DNA of 64,000 nt from a virus: positions 1 to 64,000 of the IMG/VR virus record IMGVR_UViG_3300035670_000039; one strand, written 5' to 3'. Made by a program: the position numbers and the translations under genes. Positions 9,188-20,649 of this stretch are shown piece after piece (the stretch's first letter is position 1; every line of letters begins with the position of its first letter). The notes beneath the pieces are model-generated. The model was given only the letters and a program-made list of their open reading frames with translations, searched no databases and was not told the DNA's origin.

Positions 9188-9263
9188 GGTGAATATCCTC
9201 TATGTAGTAAGAGCATTGCCTGTGAAGCAATCAAAGGGAGTGCAAATCTCCTTATTCACCCCA
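9188..9263 (+). tRNA. tRNA-His(GUG), A18/G55 type
   Basis: Extra G at -1 before GTGAATA/TATTCAC, facing discriminator C as His requires. Loop CTGTGAA. D-loop carries GTAGTAA with AG rather than GG; T-loop TGCAAAT has G55. CCA encoded. Confidence 0.9.
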
Positions 9264-9271
9264 ATTTTAAT

Positions 9272-9347
9272 TACCCTATCGTCTAGGTTTAGGACGGATG
9301 TGTTCTCTGAGACATCAACCTTGGTGAAAATCCAAGTGGGGTAACCA
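9272..9347 (+). tRNA. tRNA-like gene, Glu-like body, abnormal anticodon arm
   Basis: Acceptor TACCCTA/TGGGGTA, D-arm GTCT-AGGTTTA-GGAC as in the Glu tRNAs nearby, T-stem CTTGG/CCAAG with loop TGAAAAT (C56 lost), discriminator A and CCA. The only good anticodon stem, GATGT/ACATC, encloses ten bases (GTTCTCTGAG) instead of seven, so no isotype can be given. Degenerate, or an expanded-loop tRNA. Confidence 0.55.
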
Positions 9348-9353
9348 ATTTAT

Positions 9354-9431
9354 GCTTCGGTGGTGAAAATGGATTTATCACGCAACGCTACGAACGTTGA
9401 GTTTGGGGTTCGAATCCTCACTGAAGCACCA
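9354..9431 (+). tRNA. tRNA-Arg(ACG), canonical
   Basis: Acceptor GCTTCGG/CTGAAGC, stem CAACG/CGTTG, loop CTACGAA. D-loop has GG, T-loop TTCGAAT, discriminator A, CCA encoded. A34 would need inosine formation to read CGC and CGA. Confidence 0.9.
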
Positions 9432-9442
9432 ATTTATATAAT

Positions 9443-9520
9443 GGCCTCATCGTCTAATGGGTATAGGACGGTAGACTTTCAATCTACAAATCGTGGGTTC
9501 AATTCCCCGTGGGGCTACCA
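9443..9520 (+). tRNA. tRNA-Glu(UUC), canonical
   Basis: GTAGA/TCTAC closes loop CTTTCAA. D-arm GTCTAATGGGTATAGGAC, T-loop TTCAATT, discriminator A, CCA encoded. First acceptor pair is G-U. Confidence 0.9.
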
Positions 9521-9528
9521 TTTTAAAA

Positions 9529-9615
9529 GTGACGAGGGCAACAAAGAGACTTAAACCCAAAAGATTGAAGGAGCCCTTGCATGCCGGGTAATTCCTACTG
9601 GGGTAATCTCGTCAC
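9529..9615 (+). ncRNA. tRNA-sized structured element
   Basis: Perfect 8-bp terminal helix GTGACGAG/CTCGTCAC encloses 71 bases. An inner AGGGC/GCCCT helix is visible and ATTCC can pair with GG-AAT near the 3' side. I cannot draw an anticodon or T-arm, and there is no CCA. It sits between two Glu tRNAs in the same transcript. Confidence 0.45.
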
Positions 9616-9625
9616 AATATTTAAC

Positions 9626-9702
9626 GGTCGCATCGTCTATGTGTGATAGGACACCATCCTCTCAAGATGGAGAATAGGGTTCAAATCCCAATGCGACTGC
9701 CA
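9626..9702 (+). tRNA. tRNA-Glu(CUC)
   Basis: Acceptor GGTCGCA/TGCGACT (first pair G-U), stem CCATC/GATGG, loop CTCTCAA. T-loop TTCAAAT is canonical, but the D-loop (ATGTGTGATA) has neither GG nor AG. Discriminator G, CCA encoded. Confidence 0.85.
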
Positions 9703-9712
9703 TTTATAGTAT

Positions 9713-9789
9713 ATCCGCCAATGTTCCAAGGATTAGGCGACAGGCTCTCCAAAAGCCCGTGGGTAAGTTCGATTCTTACGGTGGATGCA
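9713..9789 (+). tRNA. tRNA-Trp(CCA), CCA tail incomplete
   Basis: Acceptor ATCCGCC/GGTGGAT, loop CTCCAAA, T-stem GTAAG/CTTAC with TTCGATT, discriminator G. Only CA follows, so the host CCA enzyme must repair the end. The D-loop is long (13 nt) and contains GG. Confidence 0.85.
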
Positions 9790-9836
9790 TTTCAAAAAAA
9801 ATAATATTATTTGAGTTCGTGTCTATATTTATTATT

Positions 9837-10508
9837 ATGGACACGAACGCTCAATATAAATACACGATATATAAGATTACAAATAAATTGAACCAAAAAA
9901 TTTACATTGGAATGCATAAAACAAAAAATTTGCAGGACAATTATATGGGTTCTGGAAAACTTCTAAAAAGAGCAATACAAAAATATGGTGAAGAAAATTT
10001 TATTAAAGAAATTTTATTTATATTTGATACCGCTGAAGAAATGTTTTCCAAAGAAAGAGAAATTGTAAACCAATTATTTATTGAATCGAATAATACTTAC
10101 AATATAATGGAAGGTGGTTATGGCGGTTATTCTTATATAAACGAATCTGGAAAAAATATACATCATAAAAATATTGAGATTAGGAAAAAGAATTTGTTGA
10201 CAGGAGATAAGATAAAAGAATTTTTAATTGAAAAAGGATTATTTGAAGAATGGAAACAGAAAGTATCAACATCTTTAAAGGAAAAATGGAAACAAAATGC
10301 TTTTCATTGGACCGGTAAAAAACATAAAGAAGATACAAAAAAGAAAATCGGAGAAAAACTAAAAGTAGCACAATCCGGTGCAAAAAATTCCCAATATGGA
10401 ACTTGTTGGGTATATCATTCTGAAACAAATAAAAATCTTAAAATTAAAAAAGAACAACTACAAACATACTTGACAAACGGATATGTTAAAGGTAGAGTAT
10501 ATAAATAA
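9837..10508 (+). CDS. GIY-YIG homing-type endonuclease, 223 aa
   Basis: The N-terminal YTIYKITNKLNQKIYIGMH (about residues 8-26) is the GIY-YIG core, here as IYK...YIG, followed by SGKLLKRAIQKYGEENFIKE with the usual Arg and Glu positions. The C-terminal half is Lys-rich with repeated ...KKHKEDTKKKIGEKLK, like the DNA-binding NUMOD-type repeats of such enzymes. The ATG at 9837 is used because the longer frame would start inside tRNA-Trp. It sits alone between tRNAs, as mobile nucleases do. TATTTATT lies 3 bases before the ATG. Confidence 0.85.
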   Translation: MDTNAQYKYTIYKITNKLNQKIYIGMHKTKNLQDNYMGSGKLLKRAIQKYGEENFIKEILFIFDTAEEMFSKEREIVNQLFIESNNTYNIMEGGYGGYSYINESGKNIHHKNIEIRKKNLLTGDKIKEFLIEKGLFEEWKQKVSTSLKEKWKQNAFHWTGKKHKEDTKKKIGEKLKVAQSGAKNSQYGTCWVYHSETNKNLKIKKEQLQTYLTNGYVKGRVYK

Positions 10509-10534
10509 TTTTTAAATACATTAGGTGAAGGCAA

Positions 10535-10610
10535 CGAACGTAGCTTAATTGGTAAAGCAACTGCGCTGTATGCAGTAGTCATTCAGTTCGAATCTGAATC
10601 AATAGTTGAA
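10535..10610 (+). tRNA. tRNA-like gene with broken acceptor
   Basis: A good D-arm (GCTTAATTGGTAAAGC), anticodon stem ACTGC/GCAGT and T-arm TTCAG-TTCGAAT-CTGAA are present. The loop GCTGTAT has C at position 33, and the flanks (ACGAACG, TCAATAG) do not pair. No CCA. Probably a decayed tRNA; limits are approximate. Confidence 0.5.
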
Positions 10611-10619
10611 GTAGTAAGT

Positions 10620-10790
10620 AATGTATTGACACTGATAGACATTGAAGGTTATAATCTGACGAGGTTATAGTTAGTAGGTGGAACAAGCATAGTGAAATCC
10701 AGTAAACATTTTTTGAAAGAGAGTCTGTTGAAGTCAGAACTGGGCAGTCCGCCCTAAGTGGTGGTAAGAGAATCCACACTTTCAAATTTA
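10620..10790 (+). ncRNA. Structured RNA with a cloverleaf-like 3' domain
   Basis: The 3' part folds with terminal helix TTGAAAG (around 10713-10719) / CTTTCAA (around 10779-10785) and three arms: GTCTG...CAGAAC, GGGC-AGTCC-GCCC and GTGG...CCAC. The loops match no tRNA consensus. The 5' part has TATAA/TTATA. No ORF of merit on either strand. Confidence 0.4.
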
Positions 10791-10799
10791 ATTTTTAAT

Positions 10800-10877
10800 T
10801 CCAGTCAAGGAAACTTAGTGTAACCGGCGGTCTGTTAAACCGTGTCGAGCTTGGGGCGGAGCCAAGGGCTGGAGCCA
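10800..10877 (+). tRNA. tRNA-Asn(GUU), A18/G55 type
   Basis: Acceptor TCCAGTC/GGCTGGA, stem GCGGT/ACCGT, loop CTGTTAA, discriminator G, CCA encoded. T-stem CTTGG/CCAAG closes the aberrant loop GGCGGAG; the D-loop carries CTTAGTG instead of GG. A second, interrupted Asn tRNA follows. Confidence 0.85.
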
Positions 10878-10885
10878 TTTTCAAT

Positions 10886-11008
10886 TCCAGAGTAGCTCAA
10901 TGGTAGAGCATGCGGCTGTGGGCCATAAAGTATTATTTAATAGAGAGTGCAAATCTCACAAGGCCAAAGTTAACCGCAGGGTTGGGGGTTCGAAACCCTC
11001 CTCTGGAG
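10886..11008 (+). tRNA. tRNA-Asn(GUU), canonical fold, interrupted in the anticodon loop
   Basis: Acceptor TCCAGAG/CTCTGGA, D-arm GCTCAATGGTAGAGC, T-arm GGGGG-TTCGAAA-CCCTC and discriminator G are typical of Asn. The anticodon stem TGCGG/CCGCA is separated by 58 bases instead of 7. Removing 51 bases leaves CTGTTAA (GTT). No CCA is encoded. Without removal of the insertion the gene cannot give a working tRNA. Confidence 0.75.
10920..10970 (+). other. 51-nt insertion in the tRNA-Asn anticodon loop
   Basis: Limits ambiguous by one base (10919-10969). It begins GGGCC and ends GGCCAAAGT, so GGCC/GGCC can close it, and contains GAGA-GTGCAAA-TCTC, which resembles a T-arm with loop TGCAAAT like that of the tRNA-His in this array. 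Far too short for a group I or II intron. Confidence 0.6.
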
Positions 11009-11024
11009 CTCTTTCAATAGTTTT

Positions 11025-11140
11025 ATATGATGTATGGAGTATGCTGATTGAGGGTTAGGCAGTTGATCAAATTGCAATAGTATGAACATAAAGTGCCTTA
11101 AGAAATTTAAATAATTTCATTGTTCATCATACATTATATA
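11025..11140 (+). ncRNA. Structured RNA between tRNAs
   Basis: Terminal helix TGATGTATG / CATACATTA, internal helix TTAGGCA / TGCCTTAA and hairpin GAAAT...ATTTC. No ORF. It is the size of an interrupted tRNA, but no anticodon arm is evident. Confidence 0.4.
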
Positions 11141-11146
11141 TTTTTT

Positions 11147-11232
11147 GGGGTATTATACTGATAAAGACGCAGAACGGTCTGTAAAACCGTTGCCTTCGGG
11201 CTGGGTAGGAGCATTACCTACATACCCCACCA
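11147..11232 (+). tRNA. tRNA-Tyr(GUA), A18/G55 type
   Basis: Acceptor GGGGTAT/ATACCCC, stem ACGGT/ACCGT, loop CTGTAAA, long variable arm as expected for Tyr. T-stem GTAGG/CCTAC closes AGCATTA; the D-loop is ATAAAGACG. Discriminator A, CCA encoded. Confidence 0.9.
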
Positions 11233-11312
11233 TTTTATTAACAACAATTACAACATTGTAACTTTTTGTAACTTTAGTTTAATTCAATGATATTTATTTG
11301 TAGGAGAAATTT

Positions 11313-11699
11313 ATGCCTACAAAAGAATATATACAAAACTATAGAAAAAAAAGAAAACAACTTGGACTTGAAATGCTTGGAGGTAAATGTTGTAAATGTA
11401 ATTCTGAAAAAGATTTACAATTTGACCATATAGATCCAAGAACGAAAGTGAATGAAATATCTTCTATGTTTACAACAAATATAGAAGTCTTTGTAAGAGA
11501 AATACACAAATGTCAATTATTATGTTATCCGTGTCATTTGAAGAAAAGTTTAGATAACAAAGATTATTTAATTAATAGAGAATCTTGGAAACACGGTAAA
11601 TCTGGTTATATAAATCATAAATGTAGATGTGAAATTTGCAAAAAAGAATACCACGAATATTGTGTAGAAAAATGGCAAAAAACAAAAAACAAAATTTAA
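11313..11699 (+). CDS. HNH homing-type endonuclease, 128 aa
   Basis: Contains CCKC near residues 26-29, then LQFDHIDPRTK (HNH histidine pair region), then LLCYPCHLKKS, giving the HNH fold with two zinc-binding CxxC pairs. A second CxxC region near the C-terminus (CRCEICKKEYHEYC) may be an added zinc finger. Unlike nearly all genes here it has a clear Shine-Dalgarno (AGGAG, about 7 bases before the ATG), which suggests a separate origin. Standing between tRNA-Tyr and the interrupted tRNA-Phe, it is a likely mobile element. Confidence 0.85.
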   Translation: MPTKEYIQNYRKKRKQLGLEMLGGKCCKCNSEKDLQFDHIDPRTKVNEISSMFTTNIEVFVREIHKCQLLCYPCHLKKSLDNKDYLINRESWKHGKSGYINHKCRCEICKKEYHEYCVEKWQKTKNKI

Positions 11700-11706
11700 T
11701 TTTAGA

Positions 11707-11808
11707 TTGTGTGTAGTTCAGGGGTAGATCAGTGCTCACTATGATGGTAAATGACACCGTAAAAGTGTGAATAAGCACGGGCCGTTGGTTCGATTCCAAC
11801 CACACAAT
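11707..11808 (+). tRNA. tRNA-Phe(GAA), canonical fold, interrupted in the anticodon loop
   Basis: Acceptor TTGTGTG/CACACAA, D-arm GTTCAGGGGTAGATC, T-arm GTTGG-TTCGATT-CCAAC are regular. The anticodon stem GTGCT/AGCAC encloses 37 bases. Removing 30 leaves C-TGAATA, anticodon GAA. Discriminator T, no CCA. A second, uninterrupted Phe tRNA lies at 11909. Confidence 0.7.
11738..11767 (+). other. 30-nt insertion in the tRNA-Phe anticodon loop
   Basis: With the preceding C it forms CACT...AGTG, four pairs directly at the insertion boundary, with an inner GGT-AAATGAC-ACC hairpin. The likely junction is between positions 32 and 33. Confidence 0.55.
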
Positions 11809-11817
11809 TTAGTTTTT

Positions 11818-11895
11818 GACAGGTGCTAGTGCGCAGGGCGTGGTAAAGGAGCGGGCGACTCTGTTCCGAAAAGGTTCGATTCCTTTGACTTGTCA
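11818..11895 (+). tRNA. tRNA-like gene, isotype unclear
   Basis: Terminal helix GACAGGT/ACTTGTC and T-arm AAAGG-TTCGATT-CCTTT are present. One extra base sits between T-stem and acceptor, no CCA, and the best anticodon stem GGAGC/GTTCC encloses ten bases (GGGCGACTCT) with no U33. Probably degenerate, or of an unusual architecture shared with the element at 9272. Confidence 0.45.
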
Positions 11896-11908
11896 ATAGA
11901 TTTATAAT

Positions 11909-11984
11909 CCCAGTTAAGCTAACCTAGTGAAAGCGCAAGTCTGAAGAACTTGAGAGGTTGGGGCGGAACCAACAATTGGGACCA
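11909..11984 (+). tRNA. tRNA-Phe(GAA), A18/G55 type
   Basis: Acceptor CCCAGTT/AATTGGG, stem CAAGT/ACTTG, loop CTGAAGA. T-stem GTTGG/CCAAC closes GGCGGAA; D-arm GCT-AACCTAGTGAA-AGC carries AG. Discriminator A, CCA encoded. Confidence 0.9.
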
Positions 11985-12005
11985 TTTTTTGACGATGCAT
12001 GCAGA

Positions 12006-12013
12006 TATTTATA
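12006..12013 (+). promoter_or_regulatory. TATTTATA motif before a start codon
   Basis: Candidate late promoter, 4 bases before the ATG at 12018. Confidence 0.5.
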
Positions 12014-12017
12014 TCAT

Positions 12018-12767
12018 ATGATTAAATTGAAAGAATTAATATTGGAGGGTTTGAAAGATAGTGTATATTTGGAACCCAAGAGTAAATCTGAAGTATTGAA
12101 TTTTATTAAGCAGCATTATTTAAAGACATATCCTACGGCGGTGGCTGCTAATTATGGTGTGATGTACAAGAAGACAGATGGTAATGTGGATATGGTAGGA
12201 GTGATTGTTTATGGACAAACCACCAAGCCACAAGATTATGAAGAAATAGCTGTAGATGCAGAGGGCAACAGTTTATTGCAAAAGAATGAAGTATTTGAGT
12301 TATTGAGATTATATTTGAAACCTGAGGCAAAACAAATACCTGAGTTAAGCAACTTGGCGTCGTATGTAATTGGTTTGGGTAATAAAAAGATTAAACAGGA
12401 TTATCCCGAATTAAAGGTTGTTATTACACGGGCTGATAGTGGACAGGGACATACTGGATCTATATATCAAGCAACAAATGCAATTTATTTAGGCAAGAGT
12501 AAAGATACAAAACGTTTGTGGGATAAAAAAGAAAACAAGTGGGTGTATAGATTACCACAAATAAAGAAGTATGGTTTTGAAACTGGTAAAGATGCAGCAA
12601 ATGATGCAAGAACCAATCCTAATAGTCCATTTGAAATAAGAACTGCTACTGGAAAACATATGTACATTTATATTTTATCCGGACAAAATTCTAGTGATGG
12701 TAAAAGAATATTGGGTGGATTGATTAAGTCAATTCAACCATATCCAAAGAAACAAAGTAACGTTTAA
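12018..12767 (+). CDS. Mom-like GNAT family DNA-modification protein, 249 aa
   Basis: The pattern matches the Mom/GNAT family known from phage Mu: a strand pair around VMYKKTDGNVDMVGVIVYG, then FELLRLYLKPEAKQIPELSN (hydrophobic-R-L core), ASYVIGLGNKKIKQDYPELK, and the hallmark VVITRADSGQGHTGSIYQAT followed by NAIYLG. Mom modifies adenines and protects phage DNA from host restriction, so an anti-restriction role is likely. The start at 12018 is used because the longer frame begins inside tRNA-Phe. The C-terminus (from about residue 170) is an extra basic region. Confidence 0.75.
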   Translation: MIKLKELILEGLKDSVYLEPKSKSEVLNFIKQHYLKTYPTAVAANYGVMYKKTDGNVDMVGVIVYGQTTKPQDYEEIAVDAEGNSLLQKNEVFELLRLYLKPEAKQIPELSNLASYVIGLGNKKIKQDYPELKVVITRADSGQGHTGSIYQATNAIYLGKSKDTKRLWDKKENKWVYRLPQIKKYGFETGKDAANDARTNPNSPFEIRTATGKHMYIYILSGQNSSDGKRILGGLIKSIQPYPKKQSNV

Positions 12768-12785
12768 AGTTTTTTTAAAAAGCTG

Positions 12786-12813
12786 TTGACGAAGTTATAA
12801 AGTGTGGTAAGAT
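12786..12813 (+). promoter_or_regulatory. RNA-island promoter 3
   Basis: TTGACG (12786-12791), 16-base spacer ending GTGTGG, TAAGAT (12808-12813). It drives the tRNA group from 12856. Confidence 0.8.
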
Positions 12814-12855
12814 GATTATAGTTCGTTGACAATGTAAGAAGAAATTTTTAATAAT

Positions 12856-12931
12856 GGAATCATAAGTCAATTGGCTAGACTACGATACTCTTAATATCGT
12901 GATTCGGGTTCAAATCCCGATGATTCCACCA
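12856..12931 (+). tRNA. tRNA-Lys(CUU), canonical
   Basis: Acceptor GGAATCA/TGATTCC, stem CGATA/TATCG, loop CTCTTAA, D-loop with GG, T-loop TTCAAAT, discriminator A, CCA encoded. Confidence 0.9.
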
Positions 12932-12937
12932 TTTTAT

Positions 12938-13019
12938 AAGTCTAGCGGTAACTCGTAACCGATATTTGCCGGGGTTGAAATCCTAGGGATTAAAGAGTGA
13001 CAGAGGGAAAGACCCACCA
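12938..13019 (+). ncRNA. tRNA-sized structured element
   Basis: Nested helices GTCT...AGAC and ACTC...GAGT enclose two hairpins, AACCG...CGGGGTT and AATCC-TAG-GGATT. It ends in ACCCACCA. No standard cloverleaf can be drawn. Confidence 0.4.
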
Positions 13020-13025
13020 ATTTAT

Positions 13026-13104
13026 GGAGTCAAAGCCACAATAGACGGGCAGCCGGCTTTTAACCGGACGATTCGTGTGGGAGCATTACCCACTGGCTCC
13101 ACCA
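13026..13104 (+). tRNA. tRNA-Lys(UUU), A18/G55 type
   Basis: Acceptor GGAGTCA/TGGCTCC, loop CTTTTAA. T-stem GTGGG/CCCAC closes AGCATTA; D-arm GCC-ACAATAGACG-GGC carries AG. Variable region slightly long (8 nt). Discriminator A, CCA encoded. Confidence 0.9.
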
Positions 13105-13107
13105 ATT

Positions 13108-13184
13108 TAATGGGTAACTGGCCCCATAAGTGACTGCCGACCGGTACAATCGGTAAAACACAGAGACGGCGTGGAGAGCACAGC
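13108..13184 (+). ncRNA. tRNA-sized structured element
   Basis: Hairpins ATGGG...CCCAT and ACCG-GTACAAT-CGGT, the latter inside GCCG...CGGC. It ends GCACCA, but the 3' strand has no matching 5' acceptor strand. Confidence 0.35.
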
Positions 13185-13195
13185 ACCAATTTTTT

Positions 13196-13271
13196 GGGGT
13201 ATAAGAGGAACAGCAGACTCATTTCCCTGTCACGGAAAAGATAGTGGGGGCAGCACCCATATACCTCGCCA
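13196..13271 (+). tRNA. tRNA-Asp(GUC), A18/G55 type
   Basis: Acceptor GGGGTAT/ATACCTC, stem TTTCC/GGAAA, loop CTGTCAC, discriminator G, CCA encoded. T-stem GTGGG/CCCAT closes GGCAGCA; D-arm GAG-GAACAGCAGA-CTC carries AG. Confidence 0.9.
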
Positions 13272-13278
13272 TTTCAAT

Positions 13279-13352
13279 TGACCGTTAATTCAATAGCAGA
13301 ATAGACGACTGATAATCGTCCTACGCCGGAGCGTAACCGGCACGGTCAACCA
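13279..13352 (+). tRNA. tRNA-Ile(GAU), A18/G55 type
   Basis: Acceptor TGACCGT/ACGGTCA, stem GACGA/TCGTC, loop CTGATAA. T-stem GCCGG/CCGGC closes AGCGTAA; D-arm ATTC-AATAGCA-GAAT carries AG. Discriminator A, CCA encoded. Confidence 0.92.
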
Positions 13353-13356
13353 TTTT

Positions 13357-13462
13357 CACCAACTCTATGAAGCAGGTCGTGTGGTAAAAGAGATAGCGGG
13401 ATTTGTGTTGACGACGAACACAAACCGAATAAGCCTATTAGCAAACTATCGTGTTGGTGCCA
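13357..13462 (+). ncRNA. Structured RNA ending in CCA, possibly an unusual tRNA
   Basis: CACCAAC (13357-13363) pairs with GTTGGTG (13453-13459), followed directly by CCA. Inside, GATAG/CTATC encloses a hairpin with TTTGTGTT/AACACAAA and a TAA/TTA hairpin. At 106 nt it is too long for a plain tRNA and I see no valid anticodon loop. Confidence 0.4.
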
Positions 13463-13484
13463 CCATTGTTCGAACAGTGGTGGG
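13460..13484 (+). repeat. Perfect-looking hairpin with palindromic loop
   Basis: CCACCATTG and CAGTGGTGG pair around TTCGAA with one T-G pair. It overlaps the CCA of the previous RNA, so it may affect processing. Confidence 0.5.
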
Positions 13485-13494
13485 TAATTTTAAC

Positions 13495-13572
13495 GCACTC
13501 GTAGCTAAACTGGACTAAAGCGACTCGGTTCTAACGAGAAGATTGCAGGTTCGAATCCTGCCGGGTGTGCCA
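13495..13572 (+). tRNA. tRNA-Arg(UCU), canonical
   Basis: Acceptor GCACTCG/CGGGTGT, loop GTTCTAA, T-arm GCAGG-TTCGAAT-CCTGC, D-loop with GG, discriminator G, CCA encoded. Confidence 0.85.
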
Positions 13573-13577
13573 TTTTT

Positions 13578-13651
13578 GCCTTCATAGTATAAAAGTATTA
13601 CACATCATTGGTAATGATGAAACGCAGGGGCGGTACCTGCTGGAGGCTCCA
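13578..13651 (+). tRNA. tRNA-Thr(GGU), A18/G55 type
   Basis: Acceptor GCCTTCA/TGGAGGC, stem CATCA/TGATG, loop TTGGTAA. T-stem GCAGG/CCTGC closes GGCGGTA; D-arm GTA-TAAAAGTAT-TAC carries AG. Discriminator T, CCA encoded. Confidence 0.9.
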
Positions 13652-13704
13652 TTTTAAAAATATATTTAAGTGTGAGGGTATTATATATATAATAAAATAA
13701 ATTT

Positions 13705-14508: not shown

Positions 14509-14514
14509 TTTAAT

Positions 14515-14589
14515 GCCTGTATAGCTTAATAGTAAAGCATCAATTTCGTAAATTGATAGATATTGGGTCAAAACCAATTGCAGGCTCCA
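14515..14589 (+). tRNA. tRNA-Thr(CGU), intermediate type
   Basis: Acceptor GCCTGTA/TGCAGGC, stem TCAAT/ATTGA, loop TTCGTAA, discriminator T, CCA encoded. The D-loop carries AG (TTAATAGTAAA), but the T-loop GTCAAAA keeps U55, so this gene pairs A18 with U55. Confidence 0.85.
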
Positions 14590-14591
14590 AT

Positions 14592-14666
14592 TGTCACGTA
14601 GCGTAATAGAATCGCAGCTGGTTCTGACCCAGAAGATTGTGGGTGCAAGTCCTACCGTGACAACCA
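14592..14666 (+). tRNA. tRNA-Gln(CUG), A18/G55 type, isotype provisional
   Basis: Acceptor TGTCACG/CGTGACA, four-pair anticodon stem CTGG/CCAG, loop TTCTGAC. T-stem GTGGG/CCTAC closes TGCAAGT; D-loop TAATAGAAT carries AG. Discriminator A is unlike the two other Gln tRNAs (G). Confidence 0.7.
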
Positions 14667-14677: not shown

Positions 14678-14768
14678 GCACGATGACAGAGCTAGAGAAC
14701 TGAGATGTCTGCAAAACATCATTGTATGAAAATACATATGCAAGGAGCGTAACCTTGATCGTGCTCCA
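14678..14768 (+). tRNA. tRNA-Cys(GCA), A18/G55 type, with a long variable arm
   Basis: Acceptor GCACGAT/ATCGTGC, stem GATGT/ACATC, loop CTGCAAA, discriminator T as in Cys, CCA encoded. T-stem CAAGG/CCTTG closes AGCGTAA. The variable region is about 19 nt and folds as TGTAT-GAAA-ATACA, whereas Cys tRNAs normally have a short one. Confidence 0.85.
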
Positions 14769-15450: not shown

Positions 15451-15478
15451 AAATTAAATAAATTTATATAAAGTACAA

Positions 15479-15540: not shown

Positions 15541-15551
15541 AAAAGTATAGT

Positions 15552-15875
15552 ATGAATGAATTAAGTAAAATTGATATGGCTAATCTGGTCTTTAGTGAAG
15601 ACAAGAAGGCTAAAATTAAAGACATTTTGTGTTCTTTTTATGGAGCTACTGATGTACAATATAAAAGTTTAAATTACGGCATTTGTATAGAAATATCTGG
15701 TACTGATAGTTTTAGGTTTATTAAAAATGCTATTGGTAAAGTGTTGGAGGTAAGTGAAGATACGCTTAGTGTTTTGGGTGAAAATAAAAAGTCACAAAAA
15801 GCGTCGTATGTTTATTTGCCTGAGAAAGACAAAGCTTTGTATAAAAAACTCAAAAAGTCAGCGGTAAATAAATAA
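15552..15875 (+). CDS. Hypothetical protein, 107 aa
   Basis: Alpha/beta protein (SFYGATDVQYKSLNYGICIE, FRFIKNAIGKVLEVSEDTLS) with a Lys-rich tail. No known domain. It has the best sigma-70 promoter of the window and an 11-base gap to the ATG, so it is probably strongly expressed early. Monocistronic. Confidence 0.65.
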   Translation: MNELSKIDMANLVFSEDKKAKIKDILCSFYGATDVQYKSLNYGICIEISGTDSFRFIKNAIGKVLEVSEDTLSVLGENKKSQKASYVYLPEKDKALYKKLKKSAVNK

Positions 15876-16013
15876 TTTATTATAAAAATATAAAACTATT
15901 TATATACAACAATATTTGGGACGGTCCCAAAACGCATTAAAGATGGTTATTTTTTTGTAATCTGAATTAGTGTGGTGTAAATAACAAAACAAACAAAAAG
16001 GATAGTTAAAAAT

Positions 16014-16712
16014 ATGAAGAAAGTATTAGTATTAGTGTCATTGTTGACCGCTCTAGCAGTTACTGCTGGAGATAATTCTAACATCTCAGTAGAGGCTGGT
16101 TATAACAACCAGTACATCGTTAACGGTGTAGCTCGTTCTGAAGGCACGCCATTTGTGGGTGTAGGTGCTGTAAAGAGTTTAAAGTATGCGGATGTATATT
16201 TGGGTGGTACTCTTTTGGCCAATGGCGACCTAGATCAGTCTCATTGGACTTTGGGTGCTGGAAAAGAAGTAAATGTGTGGAAGGATGTATTTTCCGCACG
16301 ATTGGATACTACTGTAACTCGTCACCAAGCTGGTAACTTTGGTATTCCCAACAGCACTGAATTTGGTGTTAAGTTGGCACTACCAAACAAGATTGTTACA
16401 CCATATGTTCGTGGATATTATGATGTAGACTTGAAGCAAAGTGGTGTATTTGTTGGTGCAGAACGTGCTCAAAAACTTCCATTTGGATTTGTTGTAACTC
16501 CTGGAGTTGAGTATGGTAAGGTAGAAGATTATACCGCTGTAAATGCAAAGTTGGCATTGACTCGTCCGTTTGAAACTTCATTTGGTGTATTTACTCCATT
16601 TGTAAGTGCTGGATGGTATGACAACAACTTTAATACTACCAAGTACAATTGGGCAACCCGTGAATTTAGTGGTGACATTGTATATTCTGGTGGTTTGAAA
16701 TTGACCTTCTAA
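16014..16712 (+). CDS. Outer-membrane beta-barrel (TorF-like putative porin), 232 aa
   Basis: Signal peptide at residues 1-18 (MKKVLVLVSLLTALAVTAG). The mature part is a series of alternating beta strands with aromatic girdles (VEAGYNNQYIVNGVARSEGT, DVYLGGTLLANGDLDQSHWT, VTPGVEYGKVEDY) and a terminal strand ending in F (GGLKLTF), the signal for BAM-dependent insertion. It resembles the TorF-type putative porins. A phage-borne porin could replace or mask a host receptor. Preceded by an AAGGA-type ribosome site and followed by a strong terminator. Confidence 0.75.
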   Translation: MKKVLVLVSLLTALAVTAGDNSNISVEAGYNNQYIVNGVARSEGTPFVGVGAVKSLKYADVYLGGTLLANGDLDQSHWTLGAGKEVNVWKDVFSARLDTTVTRHQAGNFGIPNSTEFGVKLALPNKIVTPYVRGYYDVDLKQSGVFVGAERAQKLPFGFVVTPGVEYGKVEDYTAVNAKLALTRPFETSFGVFTPFVSAGWYDNNFNTTKYNWATREFSGDIVYSGGLKLTF

Positions 16713-16738
16713 TAGTAATTGTAGAATTACAAATGTGA

Positions 16739-16769
16739 ACCCGCTTAGAAATAAGCGGGTTTTTTATTT
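16739..16769 (+). terminator. Rho-independent terminator
   Basis: ACCCGCTTA / TAAGCGGGT around a GAAA tetraloop, then TTTTTATTTT. Confidence 0.95.
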
Positions 16770-16775
16770 TGCGCA

Positions 16776-16783
16776 TATTTATA
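16776..16783 (+). promoter_or_regulatory. TATTTATA motif
   Basis: Candidate late promoter, 20 bases before the ATG at 16804, a longer gap than usual. Confidence 0.45.
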
Positions 16784-16803
16784 AATAAAGAAAGATTTAT
16801 TTT

Positions 16804-17712
16804 ATGCCTACTATAATGGAAAGTTTATTAGCGGAACACGCAATTTTGTTACAAAAAATAATTGATCAGGCAAAGAAAGATGCTTTATCATCACAAGCAT
16901 CATCATCAGGAATAACTGGAACAACAAATGTAGTAAAGTTGGATTTGTTGTCACATATCAATTCTAACTTTGACAATTTAATTAAAGAAAAGAAAGACAA
17001 GAATATTTTAACTCCATATGTTAATCCTTATAATTGGCCTAGAAACAATAATTGTTGGGCAAAGAGTATTAATTTGACGGGATATTCTTCTTGTATTGTA
17101 CCTTTAGGAGGAGTTGGCGGCGGAACACTTATAACTAAGAAACATGTATTATTTGCAAATCACGTGCCTTATTCATCAACTCCATTTCTTATTTTCTTTG
17201 TAAATAATAATAACGTTACACTTACTTACAATGTTGTCAAAACAAAACGAGTGGGTAATACAGACATTTTAATTGGTGAGTTGGATAAAGAAGTTGATGA
17301 TTCATTAAAAGTATACAGTGTATTGCCAGCTAATTACACCAAATATTTTGATGTGAACAAAATTAATTTCCCAATACTATATTCTGATCAAGAAAGAAAA
17401 GCTTTGATTGGAGAATTTGGAGGTATTAATGGTTCATATGGATCAAATAACACAGTAATAAATCTATCAAAAGATCCTAATAGAGCGCAATATTTTGAAG
17501 CTTTAATTGGTGGTGACAGCGGCAATATTGTCTCTACTATTATTAATAATGAAATAGTATTGATAGGTGGTTGGTATATGACATTAGGAAGTTCTGCTGG
17601 TGTTGGAACAAGTATTCCTAGTTATATAACCGAAATAAATAATACAATATCATCACTAAGTGTTGGATATAAAGTTAACGAGTTCGATTTGAGTGGATTT
17701 AAAACTTTTTAA
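16804..17712 (+). CDS. Trypsin-like serine protease, 302 aa
   Basis: A chymotrypsin-fold core is readable: the His in LFANHVPYSS (about residue 119), the Asp in GNTDILIGEL (about residue 157) and the Ser in the GGDSGN box (about residue 239), preceded by a Gly-rich GGVGGGTLIT. The first ~90 residues are a Gln/Ser-rich helical leader without a signal peptide, so the protein probably acts in the cytoplasm or is packaged. It could process virion proteins, though it is not the usual T4 gp21-type prohead protease. Confidence 0.75.
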   Translation: MPTIMESLLAEHAILLQKIIDQAKKDALSSQASSSGITGTTNVVKLDLLSHINSNFDNLIKEKKDKNILTPYVNPYNWPRNNNCWAKSINLTGYSSCIVPLGGVGGGTLITKKHVLFANHVPYSSTPFLIFFVNNNNVTLTYNVVKTKRVGNTDILIGELDKEVDDSLKVYSVLPANYTKYFDVNKINFPILYSDQERKALIGEFGGINGSYGSNNTVINLSKDPNRAQYFEALIGGDSGNIVSTIINNEIVLIGGWYMTLGSSAGVGTSIPSYITEINNTISSLSVGYKVNEFDLSGFKTF

Positions 17713-17721
17713 AAAATTTTG

Positions 17722-17750
17722 TTGATTTTGTATTTTGAATACTATATATT
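17722..17750 (+). promoter_or_regulatory. Sigma-70-type promoter
   Basis: TTGATT (17722-17727), 17-base spacer, TATATT (17745-17750), ending 9 bases before an ATG at 17760. Confidence 0.7.
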
Positions 17751-17759
17751 AGTAACAAT

Positions 17760-17813
17760 ATGAATTTAATTTCACAACCTAGTCAAGCCAGTCAACTCCC
17801 ATCCGGAAGTTGA
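17760..17813 (+). CDS. Possible 17-aa leaderless micropeptide
   Basis: MNLISQPSQASQLPSGS, starting exactly 9 bases after a -10 box, the same spacing as the leaderless genes of the first 5 kb. The frame overlaps a strong hairpin. Coding is uncertain because of size. Confidence 0.3.
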   Translation: MNLISQPSQASQLPSGS

Positions 17814-17843
17814 AGGCGAGGTTGTTTGCTCCTAAAAGAACCA

Positions 17844-17878
17844 ACCCGTCACTTCAAAAAAAGAATGACGGGTTTTTG
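17844..17878 (+). terminator. Rho-independent terminator
   Basis: ACCCGTCA (17844-17851) pairs with TGACGGGT (17866-17873), followed by TTTTGATTTTT. Confidence 0.85.
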
Positions 17879-17889
17879 ATTTTTAGGTG

Positions 17890-17917
17890 TTGACAAAATG
17901 AGAAGGTGTGGTAAATT
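17890..17917 (+). promoter_or_regulatory. RNA-island promoter 4
   Basis: TTGACA (17890-17895), 16-base spacer ending GTGTGG, TAAATT (17912-17917). Same class as 8782 and 12786. Confidence 0.85.
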
Positions 17918-17923
17918 AGAAAT

Positions 17924-18060
17924 ATAACGATGTAAACAACATCAACAGTCTTTAGAAAGTTTGAACTGAGATCAAAACCGTAGAGGCGAGCCAAGGAATA
18001 GGAGACGCCGGTCCTTAGAAATAAGGGCTACCAACGATAGGTACACAATCCAACAAATTT
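17924..18060 (+). ncRNA. Structured non-coding RNA, unknown class
   Basis: Hand-folded: GATGT-AAACA-ACATC (17929-17943), then a three-way junction in which GTAG...CTAC encloses GGCG...CGCC and the seven-pair GTCCTTA-GAAA-TAAGGGC. No ORF. Like the RNA at 8905, it stands between a promoter of the RNA-island class and the first tRNA of a group. Confidence 0.5.
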
Positions 18061-18065
18061 TAAAT

Positions 18066-18140
18066 GGGCGGTTAGCTCAGTGGAAGAGCAGGACCTTTAC
18101 ACGGTCAAGGCCAGAGGTTCAAATCCTTTACCGCCTACCA
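18066..18140 (+). tRNA. tRNA-Val(UAC), canonical
   Basis: Acceptor GGGCGGT/ACCGCCT (first pair G-U), stem GACC/GGTC, loop TTTACAC, D-loop GG, T-loop TTCAAAT, discriminator A, CCA encoded. Confidence 0.85.
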
Positions 18141-18162
18141 TTTTTTTGATTAACAAATCAAA

Positions 18163-18236
18163 CGGTCACAGGTGTTACGGTAGCATCCGTGCTTTGGGAG
18201 CATGTGGAGCCAGTTCAATTCTGGCGTGGCCGACCA
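18163..18236 (+). tRNA. tRNA-Pro(UGG), canonical
   Basis: Acceptor CGGTCAC/GTGGCCG, stem CGTGC/GCATG, loop TTTGGGA, D-loop TACGGTA, T-loop TTCAATT, discriminator A, CCA encoded. A second Pro(UGG) of the other type lies at 19689. Confidence 0.9.
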
Positions 18237-18242
18237 TTTTAT

Positions 18243-18327
18243 GGGCATATGGCGAAATTGGCAGACGCACGAGTCTTAGAAGCTCGGGGAGAAATCCGTG
18301 GAGGTTCAAGTCCCTCTATGCCCACCA
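18243..18327 (+). tRNA. tRNA-Leu(UAG), canonical
   Basis: Acceptor GGGCATA/TATGCCC, stem CGAGT/GCTCG, loop CTTAGAA, long variable arm, T-loop TTCAAGT, discriminator A, CCA encoded. Confidence 0.92.
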
Positions 18328-18335
18328 ATTTATAC

Positions 18336-18427
18336 GGTTGATAGGCAGATATAAGCTGGCTGCACTAGTCTTGAAAACTAGGTTCGTTGAAAGACGAAGG
18401 TCCGGGCAGTACGGACATCAACCGCCA
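18336..18427 (+). tRNA. tRNA-Ser(UGA), A18/G55 type
   Basis: Acceptor GGTTGAT/ATCAACC, stem CTAGT/ACTAG, loop CTTGAAA, long variable arm, discriminator G, CCA encoded. T-stem GTCCG/CGGAC closes GGCAGTA; D-arm GCAG-ATATAAGCTGG-CTGC. Confidence 0.9.
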
Positions 18428-18436
18428 TTTTAATAC

Positions 18437-18505
18437 AACTCCACTTGACAATGGAGCCGAGGACTGATAATATCGTCCCGTGAAGAAATCGGAGATTGTC
18501 AAAGA
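18437..18505 (+). ncRNA. Structured element with two competing folds
   Basis: Either CTCCA-CTTGACAA-TGGAG (18441-18458) forms, or TTGACAAT pairs with ATTGTCAA near 18495. GGAC...GTCC encloses ten bases that contain the Ile-like string TGATAATATC. No CCA, no T-arm. Possibly a tRNA-Ile relic. Confidence 0.35.
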
Positions 18506-18511
18506 TTTTAT

Positions 18512-18602
18512 GGAGGTGACGTAGATAGTTAGGTTTCTACAGCAATTTGCTAAATTGCCGTGGTTTAAAAAGCCACTGAGGGGGCAGCACCCTTCGCCTC
18601 CG
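18512..18602 (+). tRNA. tRNA-Ser(GCU), A18/G55 type, no CCA
   Basis: Acceptor GGAGGTG/CGCCTCC, stem GCAAT/ATTGC, loop TTGCTAA, long variable arm, discriminator G followed by CGC instead of CCA. T-stem GAGGG/CCCTT closes GGCAGCA. The D-loop ATAGTTAGGTTT contains both AG and GG. Confidence 0.85.
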
Positions 18603-18605
18603 CGC

Positions 18606-18680
18606 TATGAGAAATTAGATTACCTGTCCGTGGTTCATAGTACACATCAAATATTTGATGACTGAACATCTAATAATTTA
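18606..18680 (+). ncRNA. Nested hairpin element
   Basis: TTAGAT...ATCTAA encloses GTTCA...TGAAC, which encloses the perfect palindrome CATCAAATATTTGATG. An alternative CTATGA...TCATAG helix is possible. No ORF. Confidence 0.4.
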
Positions 18681-18687
18681 TTAAAAT

Positions 18688-18762
18688 GCAGTAGTGGTAT
18701 AATGGCTATTACGTGAGTCTTCCAAACTTGAAATGAGAGTTCAATTCTCTCCTACTGCACCA
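18688..18762 (+). tRNA. tRNA-Gly(UCC), canonical
   Basis: Acceptor GCAGTAG/CTACTGC, stem TGAGT/ACTTG, loop CTTCCAA, D-loop with GG, T-loop TTCAATT, discriminator A, CCA encoded. Confidence 0.9.
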
Positions 18763-18773
18763 TTTTTAGTAAC

Positions 18774-18848
18774 CGGGGATTGATTGTAATAGTAGCAAAT
18801 CAGACTTTGAATCTGAGAGAATCGGAGCGTAACCGGTATCCCCTGCCA
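18774..18848 (+). tRNA. tRNA-Gln(UUG), A18/G55 type
   Basis: Acceptor CGGGGAT/ATCCCCT with a 1-72 mismatch, as in the Gln tRNA at 19606. Stem TCAGA/TCTGA, loop CTTTGAA, discriminator G, CCA encoded. T-stem ATCGG/CCGGT closes AGCGTAA; D-loop TAATAGTAG carries AG. Confidence 0.88.
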
Positions 18849-18908
18849 TTTAATAAATTTAATATTAAAAATTGAACTTTCATTCTGTTCTTACATATTT
18901 ATGTATGT

Positions 18909-19592
18909 ATGAGTAAAAATAGAACAAGTATTATCTGGAAAGTTTCAAACGAAAAATTTACAACTTTAGTAAAAAATAGCAAAACTATGTCTGAGTTACT
19001 AAAACACTTTGGTATGGAAAATAAAGGTGGAAATTTTAAAACTTGTAAAAAAAGAATTGTTGAATTACAAATTGATACCAGTCATTTCCTTTCTAGGACA
19101 CAATCAAGTAATTGGACAAGACAAGTTACAAAAGAAGATTTATTAAAAAAATTGACAACAAATTCTCGTTGTAATAGAACAGATTTAAAAAAACGTTTAA
19201 TTAAATTTAATATAATAAAATATGAATGTGCAAAATGTAAAAATAATGGCATTTGGGAAAATGAAAAATTAACTCTTCAATTAGAACATAAAAACGGAAT
19301 ATCAGATGATAATAGAATTGAAAATTTAGAATTTTTATGTCCGAATTGTCATAGTCAAACATCTACATTTGCGGGTCGTTCTCTAAATAAACACCGCATT
19401 AAACCATCAGAAATAAATCCTGATTGGAGACATCAACCAAGATATGAAAAAAGAAAAACAGATAGACCAACCAAAGAAATTTTGGAAAAAGAAGTAAAAG
19501 AAAATACAATGGTGAGTTTAGGTAAAAAATATGGTGTGTCAGATAATGCTGTGAGAAAATGGTGTAAATCTTATGGTATTATTATAAATTAA
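18909..19592 (+). CDS. HNH homing-type endonuclease, 227 aa
   Basis: An N-terminal ~85 residues contain a small HTH-like region (TMSELLKHFGMENKGGNFKT). The HNH core follows: CAKC near residue 113, LQLEHKNGISDDNRIENLEF and LCPNCHSQT. The C-terminal ~45 residues (LGKKYGVSDNAVRKWCKSYG) are a resolvase-like helix-turn-helix for DNA recognition. It stands between two Gln(UUG) tRNAs of different architecture, which fits homing into a tRNA gene. TATTTATG lies 5 bases before the ATG. Confidence 0.88.
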   Translation: MSKNRTSIIWKVSNEKFTTLVKNSKTMSELLKHFGMENKGGNFKTCKKRIVELQIDTSHFLSRTQSSNWTRQVTKEDLLKKLTTNSRCNRTDLKKRLIKFNIIKYECAKCKNNGIWENEKLTLQLEHKNGISDDNRIENLEFLCPNCHSQTSTFAGRSLNKHRIKPSEINPDWRHQPRYEKRKTDRPTKEILEKEVKENTMVSLGKKYGVSDNAVRKWCKSYGIIIN

Positions 19593-19605
19593 TATGAAGT
19601 TCAAC

Positions 19606-19681
19606 TGGGGATTTGCGTAGTGGTAGCGCGGCGGGCTTTGGACCCGCGTCTGTAGGGGTTCGATTCCCTTATCCCCTGCCA
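19606..19681 (+). tRNA. tRNA-Gln(UUG), canonical
   Basis: Acceptor TGGGGAT/ATCCCCT with a 1-72 U-U mismatch, stem GCGGG/CCCGC, loop CTTTGGA, D-loop TAGTGGTA, T-loop TTCGATT, discriminator G, CCA encoded. Confidence 0.9.
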
Positions 19682-19688
19682 ATTTAAT

Positions 19689-19764
19689 CGGAATGTAATG
19701 TCAATAGTAGACGGCCTGGTTTGGAGCTAGGAGGTTGCAGGTGCGAGTCCTGTCATTCCGACCA
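19689..19764 (+). tRNA. tRNA-Pro(UGG), A18/G55 type
   Basis: Acceptor CGGAATG/CATTCCG, stem CCTGG/CTAGG, loop TTTGGAG. T-stem GCAGG/CCTGT closes TGCGAGT; D-arm GTC-AATAGTA-GAC carries AG. Discriminator A, CCA encoded. Confidence 0.9.
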
Positions 19765-19769
19765 TTTTA

Positions 19770-19998
19770 TATACCAGACAACGGTAGAGGTTTGAACTTG
19801 GCTAGGTCCGAAACAATAACCAACGGCTGTGTTCGGCTAATAATCTGTGGGTTAAATATGCCCATAAAACCGCCAAGGTGTCTGGGATAGAACAATGTGC
19901 GTGTTGGGGATTGACTCCAACAGCGTGAGGGACACGATACACCCCTGTATGTCTGACCCGGACGAATCTGATCCAGATAGGATAGGGTTGAATTTTTG
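19770..19998 (+). ncRNA. Large structured RNA, unknown class
   Basis: No convincing ORF on either strand. Stems seen: CCAGACA (about 19773) with TGTCTGG (about 19880); TTGG...CCAA; TGGG-TTAAATATG-CCCA; TGTTGG-GGATTGACT-CCAACA; ATACA-CCCC-TGTAT; ATCTG-ATC-CAGAT. The first helix is placed like an acceptor stem around ~100 bases. Confidence 0.45.
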
Positions 19999-20000
19999 AT

Positions 20001-20029
20001 TTGACATACACTATATATTGGTGTAAGAT
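20001..20029 (+). promoter_or_regulatory. RNA-island promoter 5
   Basis: TTGACA (20001-20006), 17-base spacer ending TTGGTG, TAAGAT (20024-20029). It drives tRNA-Ala, tRNA-Gly and the tmRNA. Confidence 0.8.
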
Positions 20030-20041
20030 CTTTATAGATAT

Positions 20042-20116
20042 GGGCTGTTGGTGATAGTGGTAGCACGGGAGCTTTGCAAGCTTTAGGGAAGAGTTCGATT
20101 CTCTTACGGTCCACCA
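20042..20116 (+). tRNA. tRNA-Ala(UGC), canonical
   Basis: Acceptor GGGCTGT/ACGGTCC, stem GGAGC/GCTTT, loop TTTGCAA, D-loop AGTGGTA, T-loop TTCGATT, discriminator A, CCA encoded. Confidence 0.9.
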
Positions 20117-20165
20117 TTTTAAATTAATGTATATTGATTGATTTCAACTATATATTATAGAGAGC

Positions 20166-20239
20166 GCGGGTATGATGTAGTGGTAGCCTGCAACCTTGCC
20201 AAGGTCGATGTGCCGGTTCGATTCCGGCTACCCGCTCCA
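20166..20239 (+). tRNA. tRNA-Gly(GCC), canonical
   Basis: Acceptor GCGGGTA/TACCCGC, loop TTGCCAA, D-loop with GTGG, T-arm GCCGG-TTCGATT-CCGGC, discriminator T, CCA encoded. Confidence 0.9.
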
Positions 20240-20262
20240 ATTTCAGTTCTTTAAAATTTTAT

Positions 20263-20649
20263 GGGGATGCGTAGATTTGACATAGATAAATATCTATTGT
20301 TAGGCACGTAGAGGATGATAGTTGGCCTCTTTAATACACCTATCGAAACATTAACTGCTGAAGATAACGTAGTTAGCTATGACTTCTCTTACGATGACGT
20401 TGTAGCCCTTGCAGCCTAAGTTGTTGCACATTCAATACAATGAAGTCTGATATTTGTGTTGGGTGTAAATTATTGGACTGGACCAAATATTTGATTTGCG
20501 TAAATGGTCAAGATATTAGTAAATCTTAAGGGTAATATTTTTAGATATTTTTCATTATTAACCCCTAACAATATAAAATATATAAGCGTGTAGTCTGGCA
20601 GTAATAATTTTTTATGGACGCGGGGTGCGACTCCTCGCCATCTCCACCA
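20263..20649 (+). ncRNA. ssrA: One-piece tmRNA with A18/G55-type tRNA domain
   Basis: The 5' GGGGATG pairs with CATCTCC at the 3' end, followed by A and CCA. The 5' part GTAGATTTGACA aligns with the conserved tmRNA D-loop (canonical TGGATTCGAC), and the 3' part GGACGCGGGGTGCGACTCC with the tmRNA T-arm. A tag frame runs 20357-20419: AEDNVVSYDFSYDDVVALAA then TAA, ending in the usual hydrophobic ALAA degron. tmRNA rescues stalled ribosomes and tags their products for proteolysis. At the alignable positions G18 is replaced by A and U55 by G, the same swap as in 14 tRNAs of this array. A strong terminator follows. Confidence 0.9.

Follow-up and report, generated by a model that had tools for sequence, protein, structure and literature searches.

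Can the contact between G18 of the D-loop and U55 of the T-loop, which together with pseudouridine 55 is a textbook constant of transfer RNA (tRNA), be exchanged in nature, and what would such tRNAs be for? The question is raised by virus record IMGVR_UViG_3300035670_000039, whose first 64 kb, out of 131,075 bases, form the window analysed here. Portal, terminase, baseplate and sheath-stabiliser genes mark the phage as T4-like. Between 9.09 and 20.65 kb it carries about 33 tRNA genes and a transfer-messenger RNA (tmRNA), with homing-endonuclease-like and other genes in between. Two kinds of tRNA are intermixed in this array, one with G18 G19 and a T-loop of the TTCRA type, the other with a T-loop of the form N-G-C-R. 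An earlier note had listed 14 tRNAs and the tmRNA as members of the second, swapped class; all were located, and they make up about half of the phage's tRNAs, plus the tmRNA. We consider that these RNAs are probably functional and represent a genuine alternative elbow, kept mostly in accessory tRNA sets.

Linkage of position 18 with position 55

Swapped tRNAs retain G19 and C56, and the letters at 18 and 55 are A and G in place of the canonical G18-U55. The earlier note had read AG in the D-loops of all 14, which stands for the tmRNA and for 13 tRNAs (Asn by eye); in Ser-GCU the loop can be read as AG or GG. In Infernal alignments of two class members, Gln-CUG and the tmRNA, A occupies the G18 column and G the U55 column, a placement that does not depend on our script and agrees with the double change that the note had seen in the tmRNA (T-loop TGCGACT). 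Within the window, and without Ser-GCU and Asn, letters 18/19 and 55/56 combine as 12 GG/UC, 12 AG/GC, 1 AG/UC and 0 GG/GC (Fisher p = 2.7e-6); this count omits two register-shifted duplicates, a likely false hit at 8273 and Glu-CUC, and is made without tRNAs overlooked by the scanner, such as Glu-UUC at 9443. The D-loop scanner also missed Asn. Thr-CGU, Glu-CUC and the tRNA at 9272 belong to neither kind.

Are these real tRNAs? Seven of the 14 pass the gathering threshold of Rfam RF00005 (His, Thr-GGU, Gln-CUG, Gln-UUG and Pro, with Ile and Phe in a laxer search); the other seven, not reported by Rfam, were assigned from paired arms and CCA or, in the case of Ser-GCU, from sequence. All seven acceptor pairs, all five T-stem pairs and a CCA end are present in 12 of the 14. 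Gln-UUG has 6/7 and 5/5 pairs, and Ser-GCU is missing from this list because the window reads GCGC at its end and does not encode its CCA, which is encoded in the relatives L121, L125, L139, L150 and L177. The sequence of tRNA-His places G-1 opposite C73. The tmRNA scores 104.9 bits against a threshold of 47 (Rfam RF00023) and ends in CCA; its G3-U70 pair and tag frame were found by eye. With such stems, the Infernal alignments and stem changes that are compensated between Thr-GGU orthologues, an alignment artefact or a collection of decayed pseudogenes is scarcely conceivable, even if a tRNA at 10534, with a poorly paired acceptor stem and no CCA, and the CCA-less Ser-GCU would suit that idea.

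The linkage extends to other viruses and to cells. Counts from our pattern scans of IMG/VR and genome contigs, here and throughout, are among the matches listed, which are samples and not totals. With A18 fixed in the D-arm and the T-loop left free (87 IMG/VR entries in fetched loci, 70 resolved as tRNAs), G55-C56 was present in 64 of the 70; the other six read CC (2), TC (2), GT (1) and AG (1). These include at least one mis-alignment, L321, in whose sequence a GGTGCAA arm is also present. Genome contigs, scanned with A18 and C56 fixed and 54/55 free (109 entries, 102 resolved), gave 91 GC, 9 TC and 2 CC. When both 18 and 55 were free, the viral scan resolved 113 places (107 plus six from loci fetched earlier, three of 120 stretches being uncounted), with 104 G18/U55, 5 G18/C55, 4 A18/G55 and neither G18/G55 nor A18/U55 among these listed matches. 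A18/G55 is a small minority, yet A18 nearly always entails G55.

The same is seen in 1,082 viral tRNAs with G19 and C56, taken from the sampled viral loci and the window: 815 GG/UC, 10 GG/GC, 10 AG/UC and 247 AG/GC (p ~1e-216). The script used here scores 18/19 blind to the T-loop and prefers GG if both readings fit; at the score used, its background is one hit per 120 shuffled loci on a single strand. Removing tRNAs that match a D- or T-arm search pattern leaves 815, 10, 9 and 177. Relatives found through PhoH alone give 75, 2, 2 and 20, and so the AG/G55 linkage, for which the earlier note had looked to relatives, holds there (as it does in the tmRNA states described below) and far beyond. 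The swap recurs over many anticodons and genomes: 49 anticodons are covered in the GG/UC class and 43 in the AG/GC class, with long variable arms in 156 of 815 and 44 of 247 tRNAs, respectively. Such breadth, over 43 anticodons, short- and long-arm tRNAs and tmRNAs, makes it very improbable that the class arose from a single odd G55 tRNA by duplication and re-coding, with the linkage inherited and not compensatory. Common descent would fit the near-identical copies that many window tRNAs have in relatives and the clumping of the state on a loop-free tree, but the 122 changes on that tree are far from one.

Genes in both states and the remodelled T-loop

Homologous genes occur in either state, which argues further against simple inheritance of the linkage. 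The window-type tmRNA was present in 50 fetched loci, with aligned parts about 74-100% identical. Its ends are A18/G55 in 20 loci (TAGATT or TAGTTT with TGCGACT) and G18/U55 in another 20 (CTGGTAT or CTGGTTT with TTCAACT or TTCGACT; two of these loci duplicate a contig that the group also contains elsewhere); five have G18 and a T-loop that the script left unresolved but that reads GTTC, and three are truncated. In these tmRNAs the acceptor stems vary together with the loops, and thus whole ends are exchanged. For Thr-GGU, the L347 orthologue (AAAGGTA / ATCGATA) differs from the window gene only at 18, one T-stem pair, 54, 55 and 58; L767 is in a third state, in which A18 goes with AGCGTTA, and in L762 the T-arm is longer by two bases. 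Both states are also present within the group for Ala-UGC, for a Ser-UGA other than that of the window and, by more distant homology, for Gln-UUG and Pro-UGG; the window itself holds one copy of Gln-UUG and of Pro-UGG in each elbow class. Genes in both states are ready double-mutant pairs for testing what the elbow requires.

Other phage tmRNAs with A18, both having G55, were found in L027 and L036, one of them in a locus with six scanned tRNAs, all canonical. A18 tmRNA pattern matches were otherwise set aside as mostly chance; a matching tmRNA 3' end was present only in these two among the 120 loci listed.

Positions 54 and 58 covary too, and thus the remodelling of the T-loop extends beyond 18/55. 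In A18/G55 tRNAs the 54-58 combination is U-A (128), G-G (55), A-U (45), C-A (9), C-C (6) or A-A (4), and in G18/U55 tRNAs it is U-A in 768 of 815. T54 is missing from 119 of 247 AG/GC tRNAs versus 47 of 815 GG/UC tRNAs. At position 60, A predominates (50 of 53 with G54-G58, 42 of 44 with A54-U58). R57 is retained in 256 of the 257 G55-C56 loops listed, and the earlier note was right that C56 and R57 are kept while 18 and 55 co-vary. Anticodon-loop letters 32, 37 and 38 are similar in both elbow classes.

The covariation of 18 with 55 means that both bases are read together, which points to the contact between the D-loop and the T-loop. We propose that G19-C56 is kept and that A18 and G55, which the sequences suggest may pair, together take the place of the G18-U55 layer, normally G18-pseudouridine55. 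The U55-N-R turn of the T-loop would then become a G55-N-R turn, and U54-A58 may turn into G54-G58 or A54-U58, leaving the 54-58 pair free for other forms. The L-fold would be retained, and the swapped RNAs are presumably made and charged. GNRA tetraloops start with a G-N-R turn, forming a U-turn. Suppressor tRNAs selected from D/T-loop libraries by Zagryadskaya, Doyon and Steinberg (in 2003) and by Zagryadskaya, Kotlova and Steinberg (in 2004) reportedly worked with G54-G58 or G54-A58; those selections were made in the laboratory, whereas both pairs are natural in the present tRNAs. The swapped tRNAs share with the canonical elbow the cloverleaf, G19-C56, R57, a T-loop of seven nucleotides, G-1 of tRNA-His and the long arms of tRNA-Ser. 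They differ from its G18-pseudouridine55 and U54-A58 in the A/G letters at 18/55, in 54/58, which may be G-G or A-U, and in having no site for pseudouridine 55.

The elbow review describes a U-turn in the T-loop (PMC4810234). Like the non-canonical tRNAs treated in PMC7609411 and PMC4810234, mitochondrial tRNAs and tRNA-Pyl among them, the swapped tRNAs are a natural departure from G18 G19 / T-psi-C; unlike those described there that lose or lack the D/T contact, here the contact is probably exchanged and the loops are intact. The term G55 appears in neither PMC7609411 nor PMC4810234, and A18 does not appear in PMC4810234. A literature search covering papers outside subscription found no description of natural A18-G55 tRNAs, which is weak evidence of absence. 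The earlier note knew of no natural set built this way; that agrees with the literature found, but other phages and bacterial and archaeal contigs carry the swap. Being natural, repeated and compensated, such an exchange reveals the parts that the elbow cannot do without.

A neighbouring layer also varies: Val-UAC tRNAs in L135, L137, L145, L147, L150, L160 and L161 have U56 and apparently A19, with D-loops AGTTGATA or AGTCTGATA and T-loops TTTAAAT or TTTGAAT; in them one Watson-Crick pair at 19-56 would stand in for another.

Accessory sets, RNA-repair neighbours and possible roles

The array of the window is an accessory set, a dense cluster with redundant isoacceptors. In other phages the swap can be nearly complete. 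One contig with terminase, portal, protease and head genes (L390) carries 21 AG/GC tRNAs, no GG/UC and one other tRNA, with an RtcB gene about 1 kb from the last tRNA; another phage contig (L324) carries 16 swapped tRNAs and one canonical, with a canonical tmRNA. Six cultured phages fetched via a tRNA-Gly query have tRNAs that are nearly all G18/U55. Among them, two Val tRNAs of Erythrobacter phage XM05 share the T-loop GGCAGGA and have the D-loops AGTTAGTA (A18) and AGTTAGGA, the latter readable as AG or GG and scored GG/GC by the script, and coliphage BEU5 has an Asn tRNA with A18/U55. A second query besides tRNA-Gly gave no match, nor did a Nostoc tRNA among plasmids.

In cells, at least three AG/GC tRNAs are present in 28 of 114 genome loci among the matches listed, and 25 of the 28 are labelled Verrucomicrobia; the ratios of AG/GC to GG/UC reach 23:0 (L570), 17:2 (L555) and 13:1 (L530). 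Some array contigs may be phage, since L541 and the viral locus L350 have an identical tRNA in common. In a 145-genome sample from the phylum of an Akkermansiaceae genome, the only match was the centre genome itself, and the exact pattern is thus rare in that phylum. Single A18/G55 tRNAs occur as Phe in Pelagibacteraceae and Verrucomicrobia, as Ala in Micrarchaeota and Woesearchaeota, and as odd ones in Nostoc and Streptomyces. Nostocales loci (L526, L549, L568, L593, L600 and others) hold an A18/G55 family with a near-constant body (TACATACTAGCTCAATAGTAGAGC...) and varied anticodons.

The bacterial arrays lie near RNA-repair genes. Within 10 kb of the array, RtcB is present in 11 of 25 genomes, TROVE in 7 and either in 14, with 0.19 expected by chance. 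This test covers 25 of the 28 array-bearing genome loci; of the omitted L546, L590 and L612, L546 has RtcB and L612, by its title the same genome as L559, has TROVE. Given the kinship of the array genomes and the shortness of many contigs, the significance is only a guide. In a 238-kb phage record (G165, the record of L391), a TROVE (Ro60-like) gene lies within a tRNA-bearing region at 205564-206628.

We envision, as a substantial possibility though short of even, that the swap marks accessory backup tRNA sets, which would sustain translation when the ordinary tRNA pool is damaged. A swapped elbow would neither need nor present the G18, U54 and U55 features that modification or tRNA-damaging enzymes may read. 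TrmK recognises G18 and U55 themselves (PMC9801127), and an elbow with other letters could therefore be invisible to such enzymes; a human Val tRNA mutant, G18A, is used in PMC11046453. Backup sets fit the RtcB/TROVE neighbours in bacteria, the joint repression of the Anabaena trn operon and rtcB by TrcR (PMC10272220) and the view of phage tRNAs as replacements for cleaved host tRNAs (PMC7824862). The swapped sets resemble phage arrays, mycobacterial array units and the Anabaena trn operon, dense accessory sets with a proposed antidefence role or shown to be stress reserves (PMC12803027, PMC10272220); the present sets add the A18/G55 elbow and its association with RtcB/TROVE, and the D- and T-loops go unmentioned in the main texts of those two papers. 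Owing to the bacterial tie, the question of what phage and accessory tRNAs guard against becomes directly testable, and A18/G55 offers a sequence mark for finding some reserve tRNA sets. Somewhat unlikely, in our estimate, is the broader idea that a second recurrent natural elbow, A18-G55, marks parallel translation sets in phages and bacterial RNA-repair islands and distinguishes reserve from housekeeping tRNAs; if it were true, attack on, or modification aimed at, the G18-pseudouridine55 elbow would spare the reserve set.

Several observations weigh against a linked alternative elbow or against its backup role. In the window, Thr-CGU joins A18 to U55; 20 of the 1,082 viral tRNAs are mixed, and a further 67, out of 1,140 unique viral tRNAs, belong to none of the four cells (for example 10 GG/CC and 12 TG/UU). 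Kinship accounts for part of the counts, with 122 parsimony state changes versus a mean of 166 for shuffled labels. The tmRNAs of L123 and L182 are hybrids: a G18 5' end is combined with a G55 3' end and the acceptor stem is mismatched, as would be expected of recombination in progress or of an assembly chimera. Exchanges at 18/55 are not all equivalent, since G18U-U55G did not restore recognition by TrmK (PMC9801127). As to the backup role, genome loci outside Verrucomicrobia mostly hold one or two swapped tRNAs, not arrays, and 11 of the 25 array genomes have neither RtcB nor TROVE nearby. With one query protein each, RtcB or TROVE showed no enrichment in viral loci, being found in 2 of 28 that hold three or more AG/GC tRNAs versus 1 of 31 whose three or more GG/UC tRNAs come without any AG/GC. 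Neither gene had a match in the phage's own 131-kb record, which may be incomplete.

Could the swap be purposeless? A18-G55 may be structurally equivalent to the ordinary contact and reached by two chance steps in weakly selected, redundant tRNAs of phages and mobile elements. Such neutral compensatory drift is a real possibility that we nevertheless doubt. It accommodates both mixed intermediates (10 and 10 of the 1,082), the two states of homologous genes in one phage group, the placement of large swapped sets in phages or accessory arrays and the minority share of A18/G55 (4 of 113 with both positions free). Near-complete sets (21:0, 23:0, 17:2) and the bacterial tie to RtcB/TROVE genes are not what drift would lead one to expect.

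Alternatively, the swapped elbow may fold without pseudouridine 55, ribothymidine 54 and Gm18, which would be useful if host modification were too slow or unwanted. G55 cannot become pseudouridine, T54 is often missing, TrmK reads the very letters that are exchanged, and TruB, the pseudouridine-55 enzyme, is usually still present in carrier cells. At least 12 window tRNAs retain ordinary elbows, so the phage needs no such escape for all, and we hold escape from elbow modification to be unlikely. Loss of TruB as the cause is rejected, as the enzyme was found in 13 of 18 genomes with A18 tRNAs of the swapped kind; the five without it measure 0.6 to 1.3 Mb.

A related proposal is that the swap evades a tRNA-cutting enzyme, of host defence or phage-encoded, that reads G18/U55, so that phage tRNAs would survive the destruction of host tRNAs. 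The backup-like bacterial arrays beside RNA-repair genes and the TrcR regulation in Anabaena are in line with it. However, known tRNA nucleases mainly cut the anticodon loop, whose letters 32, 37 and 38 are alike in both classes. Furthermore, no recognised tRNA nuclease or tRNA-modifying enzyme was found among 40 (Pfam) and 10 (PHROGs) scanned of the 94 non-overlapping open reading frames of the record. We regard this escape, too, as unlikely. The reading we prefer is that of a functional alternative elbow kept mostly in accessory sets.

Features of the array

Among named phages there was no DNA match to window positions 8500-21500 and no match to a 790-amino-acid protein; every PhoH match stays under 60% identity, with 36% for the top-ranked one.

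Table 1. Swapped tRNAs, tmRNA and exceptional tRNAs of the window, with their elbow loops
Feature	Position	Strand	D-loop	T-loop	Remarks
tRNA-His(GUG)	9188..9263	+	ATGTAGTA (A18 G19)	TGCAAAT (G55)	G-1
tRNA-Asn(GUU)	10800..10877	+	ACTTAGTG (region)	GGCGGAG	weak 2-bp D-stem, register by eye
tRNA-Tyr(GUA)	11147..11232	+	ATAAAGACG	AGCATTA	long variable arm
tRNA-Phe(GAA)	11909..11984	+	ACCTAGTGA	GGCGGAA	
tRNA-Lys(UUU)	13026..13104	+	CAATAGAC	AGCATTA	
tRNA-Asp(GUC)	13196..13271	+	AACAGCAG	GGCAGCA	
tRNA-Ile(GAU)	13279..13352	+	AATAGCA	AGCGTAA	
tRNA-Thr(GGU)	13578..13651	+	AAAAGTA	GGCGGTA	
tRNA-Gln(CUG)	14592..14666	+	AATAGAA	TGCAAGT	Infernal alignment
tRNA-Cys(GCA)	14678..14768	+	GCTAGAGA	AGCGTAA	long variable arm
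tRNA-Ser(UGA)	18336..18427	+	ATATAAGCTGG, also ending in GG	GGCAGTA	type II
tRNA-Ser(GCU)	18512..18602	+	ATAGTTAGGTTT	GGCAGCA	type II; 18/19 ambiguous (AG or GG)
tRNA-Gln(UUG)	18774..18848	+	AATAGTA	AGCGTAA	canonical second Gln-UUG at 19606
tRNA-Pro(UGG)	19689..19764	+	AATAGTA	TGCGAGT	canonical second Pro-UGG at 18163
tmRNA	20263..20649	+	A18 G19 at 20273-20274 (TAGATTTGAC)	TGCGACT at 20626-20632	G55 at 20627
tRNA-Thr(CGU)	14515..14589	+	AATAGTA	GTCAAAA	exception: A18 with U55
tRNA-Glu(CUC)	9626..9702	+	ATGTGTGATA	TTCAAAT	exception: U55, D-loop without GG
tRNA outside both classes	9272-9347			TGAAAAT	four-base anticodon call (ctct); G55, A56

The D-loop of the tRNA at 9272, AGGTTTA, could supply U19 opposite A56. 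Other tRNA-like elements are intermixed with the array. At 10886-11008 there is an Asn(GUU)-like tRNA whose anticodon loop is enlarged by about 51 bases, an insert that is self-folding and has a T-arm-like hairpin with a loop of the G55 type (GAGAGTGCAAATCTC). In the tRNA-like gene at 11707-11808 the D- and T-loops are canonical and the anticodon arm is about 30 bases longer than usual. Folding alone brings out tRNA-sized segments at 13352-13466, 19775-19881, 18440-18506 and 12934-13022, some with paired ends and odd interiors, which may be tRNAs that have decayed or are very unusual.

Inside the array, at 9759-10508 and 18909-19592, lie genes for GIY-YIG and HNH endonucleases (Pfam, just below the cut-off) and are likely homing elements. 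A Mom-family DNA-modification gene is found at 11958-12767 of the window and a second one at L759:276-1049, both in one phage record, and L759:1296-3071 encodes an ankyrin plus cyclase-like protein.

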